From NCBI GenBank assembly GCA_009785215.1, contig WQWU01000004.1, forward strand, positions 1 through 64,000: 64,000 bases of DNA, in the 5' to 3' direction. Below are positions 55,747 through 64,000 of this stretch, piece after piece. Each line of letters begins with the position of its first letter. Position 1 is the stretch's first letter. The stretch comes from Treponema sp. GTDB taxonomy: Bacteria; Spirochaetota; Spirochaetia; Treponematales; Breznakiellaceae. The notes under the pieces are model-generated. The model worked only from the letters and a program-made list of their open reading frames with translations. It ran no database searches and was not told the DNA's origin. A program made the translations under genes and the position numbers.

Positions 55747-56529
55747 TTATTTTCGACTTCCACCACCTTCACTATTTTCTGTAGGAACACCCTGTTGCTC
55801 ATCGTATTGTTTTAAAAATCCAATAGCAGAAAGCTTATTAAAATTATCATTAAAATGCCATGCCTCACATATATTATTATTATAATTCATTCTTATTAAT
55901 AAATAATAATATTTATCATTTTTGCTATTGTATTTATATTTATCAATAATTATTTTATTATTAGTAGCATTTAATCCAGAAATATTTTCTAAATGAATAA
56001 TTTCAGTAATATTTTTTAATTTTTCTGCAATATTTCCGTCTTCTGTTTTATCATATTTTATATGTCCTATAGATTCAATTTTTTCAGGGTCTTGTTTATT
56101 AAATAATATTTCTTGCCAACTAATACCATATTTACTTTCTATTATGTTTCTTATATTTTGAATAGGTTTTAGTATTTTTGTATTTTTTGAAGATGTTAAT
56201 GCAAATAAAACATCATTATCATCTAAATCTATTCTTGAAGGATAACGCAATTTACTAATTATAACATTCATTTGATTACAATTTGTTAGTATATAATTAA
56301 AACTCTTATCATTCTTTTCACATAAAGCAATCAATTTTGAAAGATTATGATCGTAATCAAATTTTATATTATTATATCTTAAATATCCTTTTAAGTATTT
56401 TTCTACAGATTGAGAACAATGATAATATATTGCTTCTTTATTGGGTTTATATGCAGAATTAAGATATTCTGCTGATTTTAAGTCTTCATCTGCAATAAAT
56501 AACCATTCCGCTACTTCTTTAATATCCAT
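55747..56529 (-). CDS. HEPN domain protein with C-terminal extension
   Basis: 260 residues. Residues 1-130 are a HEPN domain: ADEDLKSAEYLN, YYHCSQSVEKYLKGYL, DYDHNLSKLIALC. The canonical RX4-6H RNase motif is not obvious. About 125 further residues (from WQEILFNKQDPEK), very rich in Asn, Lys and Ile, form an unrecognised domain. Overlaps the MNT gene by 11 bp. In known MNT/HEPN modules the HEPN protein is an RNA-cleaving toxin restrained by its partner; that role is inferred here. Base composition is much more AT-rich than in chromosomal neighbours. Confidence 0.82.
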   Translation of the reverse strand: MDIKEVAEWLFIADEDLKSAEYLNSAYKPNKEAIYYHCSQSVEKYLKGYLRYNNIKFDYDHNLSKLIALCEKNDKSFNYILTNCNQMNVIISKLRYPSRIDLDDNDVLFALTSSKNTKILKPIQNIRNIIESKYGISWQEILFNKQDPEKIESIGHIKYDKTEDGNIAEKLKNITEIIHLENISGLNATNNKIIIDKYKYNSKNDKYYYLLIRMNYNNNICEAWHFNDNFNKLSAIGFLKQYDEQQGVPTENSEGGGSRK

Positions 56530-56848
56530 ATATTAATATTCCTTTTTCACTTATAGTTTTTTCAAATGAATGATATTTTTTATATTCTATAAATTTTTTT
56601 TCTTTAATAATAAACAAATCTGCTGTAAATATTTGATAATTATATAAATAATTTGCTATTTTTCCCATTGTCAATGTAATTTTTTTATCAAATGTATCTG
56701 GAACAACAATATATATATCAATATCACTTTTTTCTGTTGGTTTTCCATAGGCGTAAGAGCCAAAAAGATATATATATTTTGCTTGTACTGTATCGAGAAT
56801 TACCTTTTTTATAATTTCTAATTGTTCTGAAATATCATATTTTTTCAT
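56519..56848 (-). CDS. MNT-type nucleotidyltransferase (antitoxin candidate)
   Basis: 109 residues. The polymerase-beta-like motif is YLFGSYAYGKPTEKSDIDIY, i.e. GS-X10-DxD, intact. Minimal nucleotidyltransferases paired with HEPN proteins can AMPylate and silence the toxin in studied systems. It starts 2 bp after the transposase stop and overlaps the HEPN gene, so all three form one transcript. Confidence 0.87.
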   Translation of the reverse strand: MKKYDISEQLEIIKKVILDTVQAKYIYLFGSYAYGKPTEKSDIDIYIVVPDTFDKKITLTMGKIANYLYNYQIFTADLFIIKEKKFIEYKKYHSFEKTISEKGILIYGY

Positions 56849-56850
56849 AA

Positions 56851-57771
56851 TTAAGCTCCTTTTCTTTCAGCAATAGACTTATAAATAGTAGGTTTTATTT
56901 CTGCGGCCTGTTCTATAAGTCTATAAAACAACTTTCCCCTGCTTGCTGATGTTCTCCTATTAAACCTGAAAGTATATTCATCAAGATAATAAGGCATGTG
57001 TTGATCTGATATAGAACCCTGTAAAGTTCCCATAATCCATCTTTTAAGTAATGATATAACTAAATGAACATTTGGCAATATTTTTTCATCATCTTCATTG
57101 CTTTTTTTATCAGATATTTTATGTTTATATCCAATTTCTTTAATTTTGCTATATCCTCTCCATCCATCTGTAATTATTGTAGACCCTTTTTCAACAGAAT
57201 TTTCAATAAACATTTCAAGATTTTCAGAAGAAGCATCAGATATTAAACCCATTCTTACTCTACCTATTTTTTTACCATCCATTTCTACAGCAATAATTAC
57301 TAAAGTTTTATTTTCAGTACCCCTGCCTCTTTTGCCACCAGATTGTTTTCCGCCTATAAATGCCTCATCAACCTCTACAACACCTTTTAACTTATCCCTA
57401 TTTGGTCTTACCATAGCAATTCTTAACTTATGAAGCCAAAGCCAAGCGGTTTTATAACTCCCTATACCTAAAACTCTTTGTAAACCCAATGCGCTTGTGC
57501 CATTTTTCTGTGAAGTAATCCACCACATAGCTCTAAACCACATAGATAAAGGTTTATGGGAATTTTGAAAAATAGTGCCAGACATAAGGTTATATTTATT
57601 TCTGCATTTCTTACATCTTACAGAAATACCTTGTTCAAAACGGTATTCTATACAGCCACAATCTGCACATTTATAGCCGTCTTTGTACTTGAGATTAAAC
57701 AGATAATCCCTACAAGATTCTTCTGTTCCAAACTTCTTTTCAAATTCCATTAAATTCATTGGATACATCAT
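56851..57771 (-). CDS. IS1595 family transposase
   Basis: 306 residues, full length. N-terminal zinc ribbon (CADCGC and CKKC), then DDE-type core: VVEVDEAFIGG (first Asp), IITDGWRGYSKI (second Asp), and a late HxxxN/E region near NVHLVISLLKRWIMGTLQG. No frameshift or stop, so it may be active. Its start lies 47 bp inside the right inverted repeat. Confidence 0.92.
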   Translation of the reverse strand: MMYPMNLMEFEKKFGTEESCRDYLFNLKYKDGYKCADCGCIEYRFEQGISVRCKKCRNKYNLMSGTIFQNSHKPLSMWFRAMWWITSQKNGTSALGLQRVLGIGSYKTAWLWLHKLRIAMVRPNRDKLKGVVEVDEAFIGGKQSGGKRGRGTENKTLVIIAVEMDGKKIGRVRMGLISDASSENLEMFIENSVEKGSTIITDGWRGYSKIKEIGYKHKISDKKSNEDDEKILPNVHLVISLLKRWIMGTLQGSISDQHMPYYLDEYTFRFNRRTSASRGKLFYRLIEQAAEIKPTIYKSIAERKGA

Positions 57772-60691: not shown

Positions 60692-61684
60692 ATGATGCAA
60701 AATAAGAAATATTTTACAAAGAACGTAAAAATGAGCAGAAAATATCTGGTTATACTTATCTTCTTTTTTTGCTCTTCTTTTGCTTTTGGGCAAAATAATG
60801 AGATGGAAGCAAATGATATAGAAATAATCGGGCATTTTATTTTTATACCTGATATAAGCATAACATTTACAAACGAAACTGAAGCTAACAGACGGCTGGA
60901 TAGGATGGCTGCAGATTTAAAAAACCGGAATTTATCGCCAGGTCAGATTCTTGTTTCTGGATTTGCCGCAATGGAACCTACTACTCTTAGCCCGGTAACT
61001 TTATCAATTAATAGATCAAGTTTTATTATCAATGAACTTGTAAAACGCGGTGTTCCATGGGAACTGTTTACTACTCCTGTAGGGTACGGTTATGTAAGTT
61101 TCTGGGGTCCGCTTTACGAGAATAGAAGGGCTGTTGTCAGCATTATAGCTCCCGGAGCAGGCGGCTGCTGCAATTGTGCAGACCTTGTAGAAAGGTTTGA
61201 ACGCCTTTCAGCCGAATGGGATGAAAGCCCGATCCGCACAGGCGCAATTACCGGCTGGTTTGCAGGAGCCGGCCCTGAAGCGAACGCATATACACGTACC
61301 AATTTTTCTGCAGGCGGCTATTTGTCCTGGGGTGTTGAACTTTTTCATCATTATGCTCTGGGTTTAAGAATCGGCTATTATTCCAATTTAAAAGATGGTG
61401 ATGTTCCAACTGACCTTCTTAATCTTAGAACAGACACCTTTGAAGCAGCGTTTTTATTCAGATATTATATGCCGTTTAAAAATATTTTTTCCGGGATATT
61501 TATAGAAGGAAATGTTGGAATGACAAGTTTCCGGGAACTGGGAAATGCTTATATTGCACCGCACGGCGGTATTGCAGCCGGCTGGCGTTTTGAATTTTTA
61601 GAACGCTTTTATATCGATCCTACTGCTCGAATAGGTTCTCCTTTTATGTGGGGATTCGGCGCAGCAATCGGAGTAATTTTTTAA
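60692..61684 (+). CDS. exported OmpA-like/beta-barrel envelope protein
   Basis: 330 residues. A signal peptide lies within LVILIFFFCSSFAFGQ; the n-region is long unless the ATG at 60731 is used. Residues 50-150 have the order of an OmpA-like peptidoglycan-binding domain (ILVSGFAAMEP, SINRSSFIINELVKRGV, NRRAVVSI). The C-terminal 150 residues look like an outer membrane barrel (AGGYLSWGVELFHHYALGLR, ending WGFGAAIGVIF). The domain order is the reverse of classical OmpA. AGGAA precedes 60692. The next gene begins 16 bp later. Confidence 0.72.
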   Translation: MMQNKKYFTKNVKMSRKYLVILIFFFCSSFAFGQNNEMEANDIEIIGHFIFIPDISITFTNETEANRRLDRMAADLKNRNLSPGQILVSGFAAMEPTTLSPVTLSINRSSFIINELVKRGVPWELFTTPVGYGYVSFWGPLYENRRAVVSIIAPGAGGCCNCADLVERFERLSAEWDESPIRTGAITGWFAGAGPEANAYTRTNFSAGGYLSWGVELFHHYALGLRIGYYSNLKDGDVPTDLLNLRTDTFEAAFLFRYYMPFKNIFSGIFIEGNVGMTSFRELGNAYIAPHGGIAAGWRFEFLERFYIDPTARIGSPFMWGFGAAIGVIF

Positions 61685-61700: not shown

Positions 61701-64000
61701 ATGGAGATGAAAATGAAAAAAAGGATTTTATCCATAGCGGTATTTTTTATTATTTTTTTATTGATCGGAGTTATCTCTTGTGATGATCCATGGTCAACTT
61801 TCTATTTGCCGGATTATATAGTAGAAGAAATAGAACAAACTGGTGAGCGCGGAACCAGTTTGGGTCCTGTCAGCATTATTGCCAATGGCGCTCCGGCAAC
61901 CGGTACGTCGCTCACTACAAACTATGCCGGGTCAGATGTTTCATTCCAGTGGGTTATAATAAACCCTTCTGGTACTATCACTGACATTCCTGCTTCGCAA
62001 GGGGGAAACAATTCTGTGTTTTACCCGTCTGAACCGGGAACATATGCTGTAATCATAACTACCAATAATGTTCCCAGTCCTCTCAGTAACCCTATAATTA
62101 TCGGCGGTGATTCATCTTCCGGTTCTCTTCTTGCCAACTCTGTTTCTATTTTTGGTTCAGGCAAACCCGGAGGCAAGTTAACTGCCAGCTGCACTCCCAA
62201 TCTTGATGACGCATCTTACCAGTGGTATTTAAATGGCATACCCATTCCGGCTCCGCAAGGGGTAGGCTCAGAATTCACACCAACTACTTCCGGTTTATAT
62301 ACTGTAAGCGCAATCGTAGACGGACATTATCCTAAGCAAAGCTCACCTGTACGGGTAAGCGAAAGCGGCGGCCTTGGAATAGAAATTAGGCTTACCAGCA
62401 GCTTGGGTGTTATTTCCCCAAGTCTGGCGTTGAATGCTTCCAAGTCACCGGCGACTGTCAGTACTTCTATTACTGCCGCTATCGAACCCAACATCAGCGG
62501 TGTTACATATCGATGGTTTGGCCCCGGTAAAAATCCCAACGCTGATCCTCCTCCTGATCCTGATGGAACCGTTGCTGCTAGCCCATTACTAACACTTGGA
62601 GTTTGGACAGTAGTTGCAACCAATAGTACGACAGGTCAGGTCAGAGAACGCCAATTCCCGGTGACACTTGGTACGCTTGCCGGAACTTTTGAAATTGTCG
62701 GTTCAGGCAAACCTGGTGAGCCGTTAACTGCCAAGTATACTCATTCCACAAACCCACAGCAGACTGGTTCTGTTACCTTTGAGTGGCTCCGTAATGGAAA
62801 TCCGCTTTCTCCAGTTGTAAAAACTGAGGCGATTCCCACATCCGGCACGCCTCCGTCTGCCACGACGCCAGCCTTCTCCCCGACACAACTGGGAGTTTAT
62901 TCGGTAAGGGTGAGCGTTCCCGGATTCTATGACAGGCATAGTAATGCTTCGGACGAAGCTTCTCCTGTAAGAGTAAATGTCACCGATACCGGTGGTCTGC
63001 TCGGACACATTTCTATTAGACACAATATTCCCGGTGTTGGCCTGATTACTTTTGAACCCGAAATTCCAGCTCGTGCAAGTGATACAACAGGTAATACTGT
63101 TACTGCCTTATACAACCCCGCAGGTGAAAGCGGTCCTTTTACATATGAATGGTATAACCCAAATAAAGATGTCAACGCTGTTCCTGCGCCTAGTCCTGAT
63201 CTAACTAACGAAACTGGTGTCAGCCCGATATTAAATGTTCCTGGTCTTTGGACAGTAAAAGCTATAGGTCCAGCCCCGGATCGGCGGGCAATAGAACGTA
63301 CTGTAGAAGTGCTGCCGTCACTATCCGGAACCATTGTTATTAAGGGCTCAGGTAAACGTAATCAACCATTAACTGCAGAATATAGCGGAACCGAACCAGG
63401 CAGATTATACCAGTGGTTAAGAGAGACTGCTCCGGGTTCTCTTAGATATGAACCTATTACTTTAAATGCGACCAATGTTACATATACACCGGCAGCAGAC
63501 GGAAACCATCTCATACGAATAACTGCACCGGGTTATGCACCGTTGATAAGCTCACCTGCCGTTGATGTAAGCCCTACAGGCGGTCTGAAAGGAACTATCA
63601 ATTTAAGTTCACTAAGGGATTACAGAAAAACAGCTACCCTCACATACAACCCCGGCGCTGGTATAGACGCTACCCCCGGCTTTACATATGTGTGGCGCGA
63701 CCCTAACGGCAATGAAAATCATTCTCAAAATCAAAATACACCCGTTCCAAATATATCTAGTGCATTGACTCCGATACTGGAGCCAGATGGACAGTGGATG
63801 TTAATAATAACTGATGCTAACGGGCGTGTAAGAGAACTACCTTTTACGGTGGTGAAACCCAATCTGAATGGAACCCTAACCATTACCGGCTCCGGCAGAC
63901 TTAATGAACCGTTAACTGCTCTTTATATCCACGCTTCAGGGCAGGGGCTTGATGGCGATCCTATTGAGTATCAGTGGTTATTAAACGGAAATCCGCTTGT
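61701..64000 (+). CDS. large lipoprotein with tandem Ig-like repeats (3' end outside window)
   Basis: Open frame of at least 766 codons reaching the window edge. The start has nearby alternatives at 61707 and 61713. The signal peptide ends FLLIGVISC with Cys27 as the lipid site. The mature part is built of alternating Ig-like modules: type A marked by GSGKPGEPLTA and YQWLLNGNP (near 62148, 62695, 63333 and 63875) and type B opening GGLxG and containing YxWxxP (near 62370, 62995 and 63585). The A-to-A spacing is 540-640 bp. Few Lys or Cys, many Pro/Thr/Ser. Probably a surface or periplasmic adhesin-like protein, expressed with the preceding gene. Confidence 0.82.
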   Translation, partial: MEMKMKKRILSIAVFFIIFLLIGVISCDDPWSTFYLPDYIVEEIEQTGERGTSLGPVSIIANGAPATGTSLTTNYAGSDVSFQWVIINPSGTITDIPASQGGNNSVFYPSEPGTYAVIITTNNVPSPLSNPIIIGGDSSSGSLLANSVSIFGSGKPGGKLTASCTPNLDDASYQWYLNGIPIPAPQGVGSEFTPTTSGLYTVSAIVDGHYPKQSSPVRVSESGGLGIEIRLTSSLGVISPSLALNASKSPATVSTSITAAIEPNISGVTYRWFGPGKNPNADPPPDPDGTVAASPLLTLGVWTVVATNSTTGQVRERQFPVTLGTLAGTFEIVGSGKPGEPLTAKYTHSTNPQQTGSVTFEWLRNGNPLSPVVKTEAIPTSGTPPSATTPAFSPTQLGVYSVRVSVPGFYDRHSNASDEASPVRVNVTDTGGLLGHISIRHNIPGVGLITFEPEIPARASDTTGNTVTALYNPAGESGPFTYEWYNPNKDVNAVPAPSPDLTNETGVSPILNVPGLWTVKAIGPAPDRRAIERTVEVLPSLSGTIVIKGSGKRNQPLTAEYSGTEPGRLYQWLRETAPGSLRYEPITLNATNVTYTPAADGNHLIRITAPGYAPLISSPAVDVSPTGGLKGTINLSSLRDYRKTATLTYNPGAGIDATPGFTYVWRDPNGNENHSQNQNTPVPNISSALTPILEPDGQWMLIITDANGRVRELPFTVVKPNLNGTLTITGSGRLNEPLTALYIHASGQGLDGDPIEYQWLLNGNPL

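Follow-up and report, generated by a model that had tools for sequence, protein, structure and literature searches.

Side-by-side genes for an OmpA-type barrel and a lipoprotein with a shared N-terminal tip recur in Treponema genomes

Does a giant Ig-like repeat lipoprotein whose gene begins directly behind that of an OmpA-like barrel protein form one surface apparatus with it, or are the two chance neighbors? The question is posed by a Treponema stretch of 64,000 nucleotides (here called the window; bases 1-64000 of contig C4, which has 65834 bases, in an assembly of 1.9 Mb and 54 contigs that is 74.7% complete), for which the original prediction proposed a joint surface apparatus. Many Treponema carry such a two-gene set, an outer-membrane barrel beside a large lipid-anchored protein, and what recurs among them is the barrel pairing and a lipoprotein tip that is shared, not the alternation of modules that marks the protein of the window.

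The lipoprotein frame on the plus strand is open from 61701 up to the window edge (61701-63998), as had been predicted, and carries on in contig C4 to a stop at C4:65657. The product is complete at 1318 amino acids, 766 of them encoded within the window (61701-64000), and with just 552 residues remaining past the edge it is not the far larger protein that had been thought possible. The sequence past 64000 contains the remainder of module A4 and then B4, A5, and B5, rather than a stop with no further repeats. The predicted 16-bp gap to the barrel gene is correct by the first ATG, but the third ATG (61713) may be the real start because the M5 column is at least 90% conserved in a 56-row alignment of barrel partners, in which N29 is likewise at least 90% conserved and Cys27 is the sole invariant residue. 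From the third ATG, the signal peptide occupies 61713-61778 and ends in the lipobox V-I-S-C27 called by script, in agreement with the reading as a lipoprotein. The acylated Cys27 opens an N-terminal tip, CDDPWSTFYL (61779-61808), which departs from the family pattern (C-x-N-P-hydrophobic-hydrophobic, followed by a looser x-x-hydrophobic-L) in having Asp at +3 and Ser at +6.

In the protein, a single leading module is followed by five A-B pairs, then by a repeat of InlB type, and at the C terminus by an Lcl_C (DUF1566) domain. The Pfam matches are Flg_new (35.8 bits against a cut-off of 27) and Lcl_C (PF07603, 44.2 bits against 34.9, aa 1234-1316), with PKD, BiPBP_C, Filamin, and PEGA marginally above and Ig_2 marginally below their cut-offs; the InlB-type repeat lies at aa 1066-1124. 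The Lcl_C domain is of a type known as a target of diversity-generating retroelements (DGRs), and it probably has a C-type lectin fold. A terminator-like hairpin lies 3' of the gene, and right past it starts a stretch that looks like a group II intron, within which the contig end (L002:5722-5834, the same as C4:65722-65834) falls and which is repeated near the end of contig C9 (L223/L004). Rfam RF02001 scores 126 bits against this stretch in relative L225, 32.9 in L223, and 26.1 in L002, the last being under the gathering score of 32, so that no Rfam match is obtained on L002 at the gathering threshold; the assembly seems to be broken at intron copies. Elsewhere in the window, two minus-strand ORFs (55747-56848) resemble by eye a HEPN and nucleotidyltransferase (MNT) pair, and a transposase-like ORF (56851-57771) adjoins this putative pair. 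A PADLOC scan for defence systems gave no match, and a tie to such systems was therefore dropped.

Module borders were placed by eye from repeated starts, and modules were compared by alignment with 200 shuffles per pair. The leading module M0 (aa 55-142, 61863-62126) is A-like (mean Z 5.21 against A and 2.15 against B). It is followed, on the same plus strand, by A1 (aa 143-224, 62127-62372), B1 (aa 225-325, 62373-62675), A2 (aa 326-432, 62676-62996), B2 (aa 433-540, 62997-63320), A3 (aa 541-628, 63321-63584), B3 (aa 629-721, 63585-63863), and the first part of A4 (aa 722-808, of which 63864-64000 is in the window). Past the window lie the rest of A4, B4 (aa 809-893), A5 (aa 894-977), B5 (aa 978-1062), the InlB-type region (aa 1063-1143), and the C-terminal part (aa 1144-1318). 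The predicted A-B alternation is real, because similarity within a type exceeds that between types: mean Z is 11.65 for A-A pairs (n = 10, 41% identity), 6.25 for B-B pairs (n = 10, 32% identity), and 2.73 for A-B pairs (n = 25, 28% identity), with a spread in which some A-B pairs reach Z 7.1 and some B-B pairs fall to 3.1. The super-repeat had been put at 180-210 residues, to which the units of the window (183, 215, and 181) come close, but the two units that end past it measure 172 and 169. The Ig-like nature of the modules holds for A and is uncertain for B; in the structure predicted for A1-B1 (built from three window units, mean pLDDT 66.5), the modelled A1 matches Ig C2 domains (RAGE 4p2y, VIA-align Z 9.8 over 76 residues, rmsd 2.7), and B1 is modelled as beta with low confidence.

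Profiles of A and B run against the ORFs of 104 loci revealed no further array, with single A-like modules only in L078, L091, and L094. When the array region was searched against 190 family genomes, eight matched besides its own (best E 2e-11), and the alternation is absent from all eight and hence from what was found in the 189 other family genomes. In the best match, the lipoprotein L261, nine A-like modules follow one another without any B; there are three modules in L192 and one or two in each of the remaining matching genomes. L261 starts CPNPTG and is cut off by a contig end, and no barrel was called in its 4-kb contig. The A-B array was accordingly rejected as a shared trait, the alternation being confined to the window protein among all proteins examined.

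The gene before the lipoprotein gene (60692-61684, plus strand) encodes a protein of 330 amino acids that, from its ORF, Pfam, AlphaFold2, and Foldseek, has a signal peptide, an N-terminal OmpA-like domain, and a C-terminal 8-stranded barrel. The OmpA-like domain, of the peptidoglycan-binding type, lies at 60821-61156; its Pfam match (PF00691, aa 63-133) scores 22.4 bits and is below the cut-off of 27.2, which the same OmpA C-type domain passes in relatives L101 (record WQSF01000082.1), L067, and L100. Read by eye against the OmpA positions, the site taken for that of the binding Asp has Ala here and the Arg is kept, and from its sequence the domain looks degenerate. The barrel domain (61247-61678, the region of profile A1 and its 43-row alignment) is modelled with eight long strands in residues 186-329, and from residue 181 pLDDT is 81-96 in 12 of 15 ten-residue blocks (71, 63, and 72 in the others); for the whole chain mean pLDDT is 69.1 and pTM 0.49, and the N-terminal alpha/beta domain is of low confidence. 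The top Foldseek match is the OmpA transmembrane domain 1qjp (E 1.9e-6, TMt 0.71), other top matches being Ail, OprF, and OmpX, and the predicted model is thus an 8-stranded outer-membrane barrel of the OmpA kind, as the original prediction had it. No TPR or Slam family match was obtained for the protein. Among the 43 barrel members, weak Pfam matches (E up to 0.1) to Autotransporter occur in 15 and to DUF3575 in 12, and the barrel profile has no good match among Protein Data Bank sequences (best E 0.024). In other relatives the barrel stands alone or, in L134, is joined by a weak LpoB/CsgG-like match that stays below cut-off.

A protein search with this barrel protein reaches 91 of 195 family genomes, through the barrel or the OmpA-like part. 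Within the order, profile A1 matches 51 of 146 genomes, which all belong to families f1 and f3. Across the phylum it matches 32 of 247, those outside the order with E 3e-6 or worse; the barrel family is thus found in two Treponema families, and three of its members are in the window's own genome. A scan of named genomes with the single window barrel as query found no relative. Those relatives that have names are Treponema or Spirochaetaceae MAGs, plus one labelled Fibrimonadales, and their isolate codes look like termite hosts. The Fibrimonadales-labelled MAG carries a family barrel at L105:4150-5661, the next gene is not called a lipoprotein, and either transfer or mis-binning could account for it.

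Neighborhoods were sampled mostly at high-scoring places and gave 79 unique barrel ORFs after two duplicates were dropped and eight superseded loci excluded. The next gene is on the same strand within 250 bp in 67 cases, on the opposite strand in seven, and distant in two, and three stretches contain none. A lipoprotein is called by script in 53 of these 67 next genes, compared with 59 of 450 other same-strand neighbors in the same loci (p 5e-28, a value that is too small, as are the other p values given here, because genomes and loci are related). Inspection by eye identified one false positive (L109) and five missed lipoproteins (L076, L086, L102, L134, and L140); the barrels in L108 and L112 were missed by the gene caller, so their tip-bearing lipoproteins were counted as unpaired. 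Gaps between barrel and lipoprotein genes range from -112 to 238, with 31 of 53 between -4 and 25 and 26 of 53 below zero, and the 47 complete partners have a median length of 636 residues. The pairing is seen in many genera, with cargo that is unrelated from case to case, and three times in the genome of the window. Its frequency across genomes much strengthens the proposed joint apparatus, of which contact between the two products and their surface exposure are the parts we infer from sequence.

The cargo of the partners is diverse. Among 56 of them, the window protein included, Pfam (E up to 1e-4) finds Flg_new in 18, FGE-sulfatase in 10, YDG in nine, Big_2 in seven, Glug and LRR_8 in six each, CBM_X2 in four, GH8 in three, Lcl_C in two, and alpha-amylase in one; GH8 occurs with CBM_X2 in L064, L102, and L106, and alpha-amylase (GH13) with CBM26 in L135. 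Their tips are nonetheless much alike across this otherwise unrelated cargo. The set of 57 tips (52 called by script and five by eye) reduces to 55 unique ones, of which 53 have Asn at +3, 41 have Pro at +4, all have a hydrophobic residue at +5, and 96% have one at +6; looser positions are hydrophobic in 75% (+9) and 65% (+10). The script-called tips alone (49 unique of 52) give 47, 36, 49, and 47 for these first four positions. Among 73 lipoproteins that have no called barrel within three genes upstream, on the other hand, Asn +3 is present in 12 and CxNP in three, and the longer pattern through +10 is found in five of these 73 as against 29 of the 55 tips. Some tips or tip-like starts have no barrel next to them, in L085, L261 (CPNPTG), L078 (further along a barrel cluster), and L079 (covered without its upstream DNA); within barrel clusters, the tip is also borne by the lipoproteins in second and third place.

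An independent scan of DNA used a lipobox plus CxNPF pattern and was blind to barrels. The mean number of matches per genome was 2.12 where a barrel is present (51 genomes) and 0.83 where there is none (95 genomes; Mann-Whitney p 2.9e-6, or 5.6e-6 without outlier G069), the reversed-pattern control giving 0.49 and 0.33, respectively, so that barrel-less genomes also exceed their control. Of 90 matches tested in barrel genomes, 23 lie at most 1 kb downstream of a barrel, three more at most 6 kb downstream, and 64 in neither range. The outlier G069 has fourteen near-identical matches, probably a multicopy gene family.

The cultured species T. denticola links the pairing to DGRs. Its genome (G240, 2,843,201 bases) has three barrel places, and the lipoprotein behind one of them, at 2,125,639-2,126,709, occupies the exact site given for DGR target TDE2101 in the available part of PMC4891356; a second barrel-linked lipoprotein ends at 2,276,644, as is published there for TDE2239. 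These are two of the seven DGR targets listed in that part of PMC4891356, and the other five are not at the three barrel places. Because TDE2101 and TDE2239 sit behind barrels, DGR-diversified lipoproteins use the pairing in T. denticola. Among solved structures, the variable protein 2Y3C is similar to TDE2101 (148 bits). Of 142 positions compared with the template, the variable region of TDE2101 has 24 changed, 21 of which are adenines in the template; for TDE2239 there are 33 differences, 24 at adenines. The TDE2239 frame (L132:8645-9706) opens upstream of the published start and has CKNPFF after a hydrophobic stretch, and the protein may be a lipoprotein, although it is absent from the lipoprotein prediction in the accessible text of PMC4891356. 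A third barrel-linked lipoprotein, absent from the seven published targets, has a template-like 3' end (L170, G240:C1:853999-854153) with 44 mismatches in 142, of which 23 fall on template adenines; this end may be a variable region that has decayed. In the T. denticola barrels (L131 and L132), a hydrophobic segment at the N terminus is accompanied by a Pro/Lys/Glu-rich stretch that resembles a TonB linker by eye, and the L131 barrel protein has no Pfam match. DGR-like loci in same-genus genomes (L165-L169) contain a reverse transcriptase with YMDD and a small neighboring gene, and several of them contain a lipoprotein with an FGE-domain-like end; no barrel was called in these stretches. The main text of PMC4891356 has no "beta-barrel" and a single "outer membrane", on pertactin, and no account of a barrel partner or pair was found in the accessible portions of the literature on T. 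denticola targets, Treponema lipoprotein sorting, DUF1566, TvpA, and termite adhesins.

We favor, with a probability of roughly 55%, a two-gene surface-display pair in which a lipidated tip docks on the barrel and the cargo is exchangeable. The small OmpA-type barrel would be seated in the outer membrane, with the additional OmpA-like domain at its N terminus possibly turned toward the peptidoglycan; the varied extra domains of family barrels (OmpA-like first or last, LpoB/CsgG-like, or Pro/Lys/Glu-rich) would suit a wall anchor. The acylated Cys and the residues next to it (C-x-N-P-hydrophobic-hydrophobic and the looser x-x-hydrophobic-L) would be a common docking tip that docks on or into the barrel while BamA assembles it, much as happens with RcsF and OmpA, and a barrel fixed to the wall would thereby hold the cargo outside the cell. 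The tip would be the part that is recognized, given the gene order, the barrel fold, and the conservation of the tip on proteins that are unrelated elsewhere. For the window protein, the cargo would be a stalk of eleven Ig-like modules with the InlB-type repeat and Lcl_C at its far end, where Lcl_C would most likely serve to bind some surface or glycan of the gut; we infer the docking, the exposure at the surface, the contact with the wall, and the binding of a ligand. More tentatively, the residues after the acylated Cys might serve as an address for a small barrel dedicated to reading it, and the pair as a Treponema surface-display chassis with exchangeable cargo; if so, the cargo of this chassis would include the Ig stalks and GH8 enzymes of species from termite guts at one end and, at the other, the binding proteins that a retroelement diversifies in T. 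denticola.

Several other explanations were weighed against docking. The two products could be merely co-expressed envelope proteins and the tip a general signal that Lol or BAM, and not the barrel, reads to sort lipoproteins to the outer membrane or the surface. Tips without an adjacent barrel, tips on second and third cluster lipoproteins, and the excess over control in barrel-less genomes (0.83 against 0.33) all agree with such a signal, but the tip is missing from most lipoproteins that are not near a barrel (Asn +3 in 12 of 73) and the pattern is commoner where barrels are present (2.12 against 0.83), and we regard this explanation as rather doubtful. An 8-stranded barrel is too narrow for folded Ig modules, and docking is favored over transport through the barrel because the room inside eight strands is too small. 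That the barrel serves its neighboring lipoprotein as a dedicated export channel (flippase), like Slam, is for this reason unlikely in spite of the adjacent and often overlapping genes (26 of 53 gaps below zero): the partners (median 636 residues in 47 complete ones), if folded, would be too big for so narrow a barrel, and the model has eight strands as against the 14 predicted for Slam. Slam genes do often lie beside those of their substrates, and the available part of PMC7857515 reports none in spirochetes.

It is very improbable that the giant protein is itself a DGR variable protein with an Lcl_C domain rewritten by a retroelement, in the manner of the TvpA-type proteins of T. denticola. 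Lcl_C/DUF1566 is the commonest Pfam domain among DGR targets of human microbiomes (according to the accessible text of PMC4159848), and barrel-linked TDE2101 does differ from its template chiefly at adenines (21 of 24 differences in 142 positions), but in the protein's own 74.7% complete assembly there is neither a template copy of its 3' end (E up to 10) nor an RVT_1 reverse transcriptase, and Lcl_C as a live DGR target here is unsupported. Least probable of all is an ordinary repeat adhesin that lies beside an OmpA homolog by chance; the lack of an alternating array in 189 other family genomes and the fast evolution of such lipoproteins would fit it, but the same pairing turns up across many genera with cargo that is unrelated, and thrice in this genome.

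The surface placement of spirochete lipoproteins is described as an open question in the available parts of PMC11784454 and PMC7857515, according to which no Slam homolog was found in spirochetes and a claim for Borrelia LptD is disputed. A barrel that travels with its lipoprotein, together with a short shared tip, is a candidate for spirochete surface display that can be tested in cultured T. denticola, a candidate that is also linked to the display of DGR variable proteins. The constant lipid-anchored tip and freely varying outer parts suggest that such proteins are kept on the cell surface by a common means, and the pair can be set beside several known systems. Slam is also an outer-membrane protein encoded beside a surface lipoprotein, but it belongs to DUF560 and has N-terminal TPRs and a predicted 14-stranded barrel (as given in the accessible text of PMC7857515), whereas the window barrel has eight strands in its model and no TPR or Slam match. 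Bacterial Ig-like repeat adhesins likewise have tandem Ig-like modules and a terminal domain of possible binding kind; the window protein differs from them in being lipid-anchored and in its two strictly alternating types, the array of nine A-like modules in L261 being uniform. The TvpA-type proteins TDE2101 and TDE2239 also lie directly behind a family barrel and have the tip CKNPFF, but their cargo is an FGE-type C-type lectin diversified by a retroelement, while that of the window protein is an Ig array and Lcl_C with no detectable template. With the OmpA/OprF family the barrel protein shares the 8-stranded barrel and OmpA-like periplasmic domain, in reversed order in the window, where the OmpA-like domain comes first; in L100, L101, and L067 it comes last. 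RcsF is a small stress sensor that is encoded apart from ompA. In E. coli an OmpA-type barrel holds this lipoprotein, which BamA loads (in the available part of PMC7857515), much as is proposed for the present pair. In Treponema, by contrast, the two genes are adjacent, and the lipoproteins are mostly large and varied and have in common an N-terminal tip.
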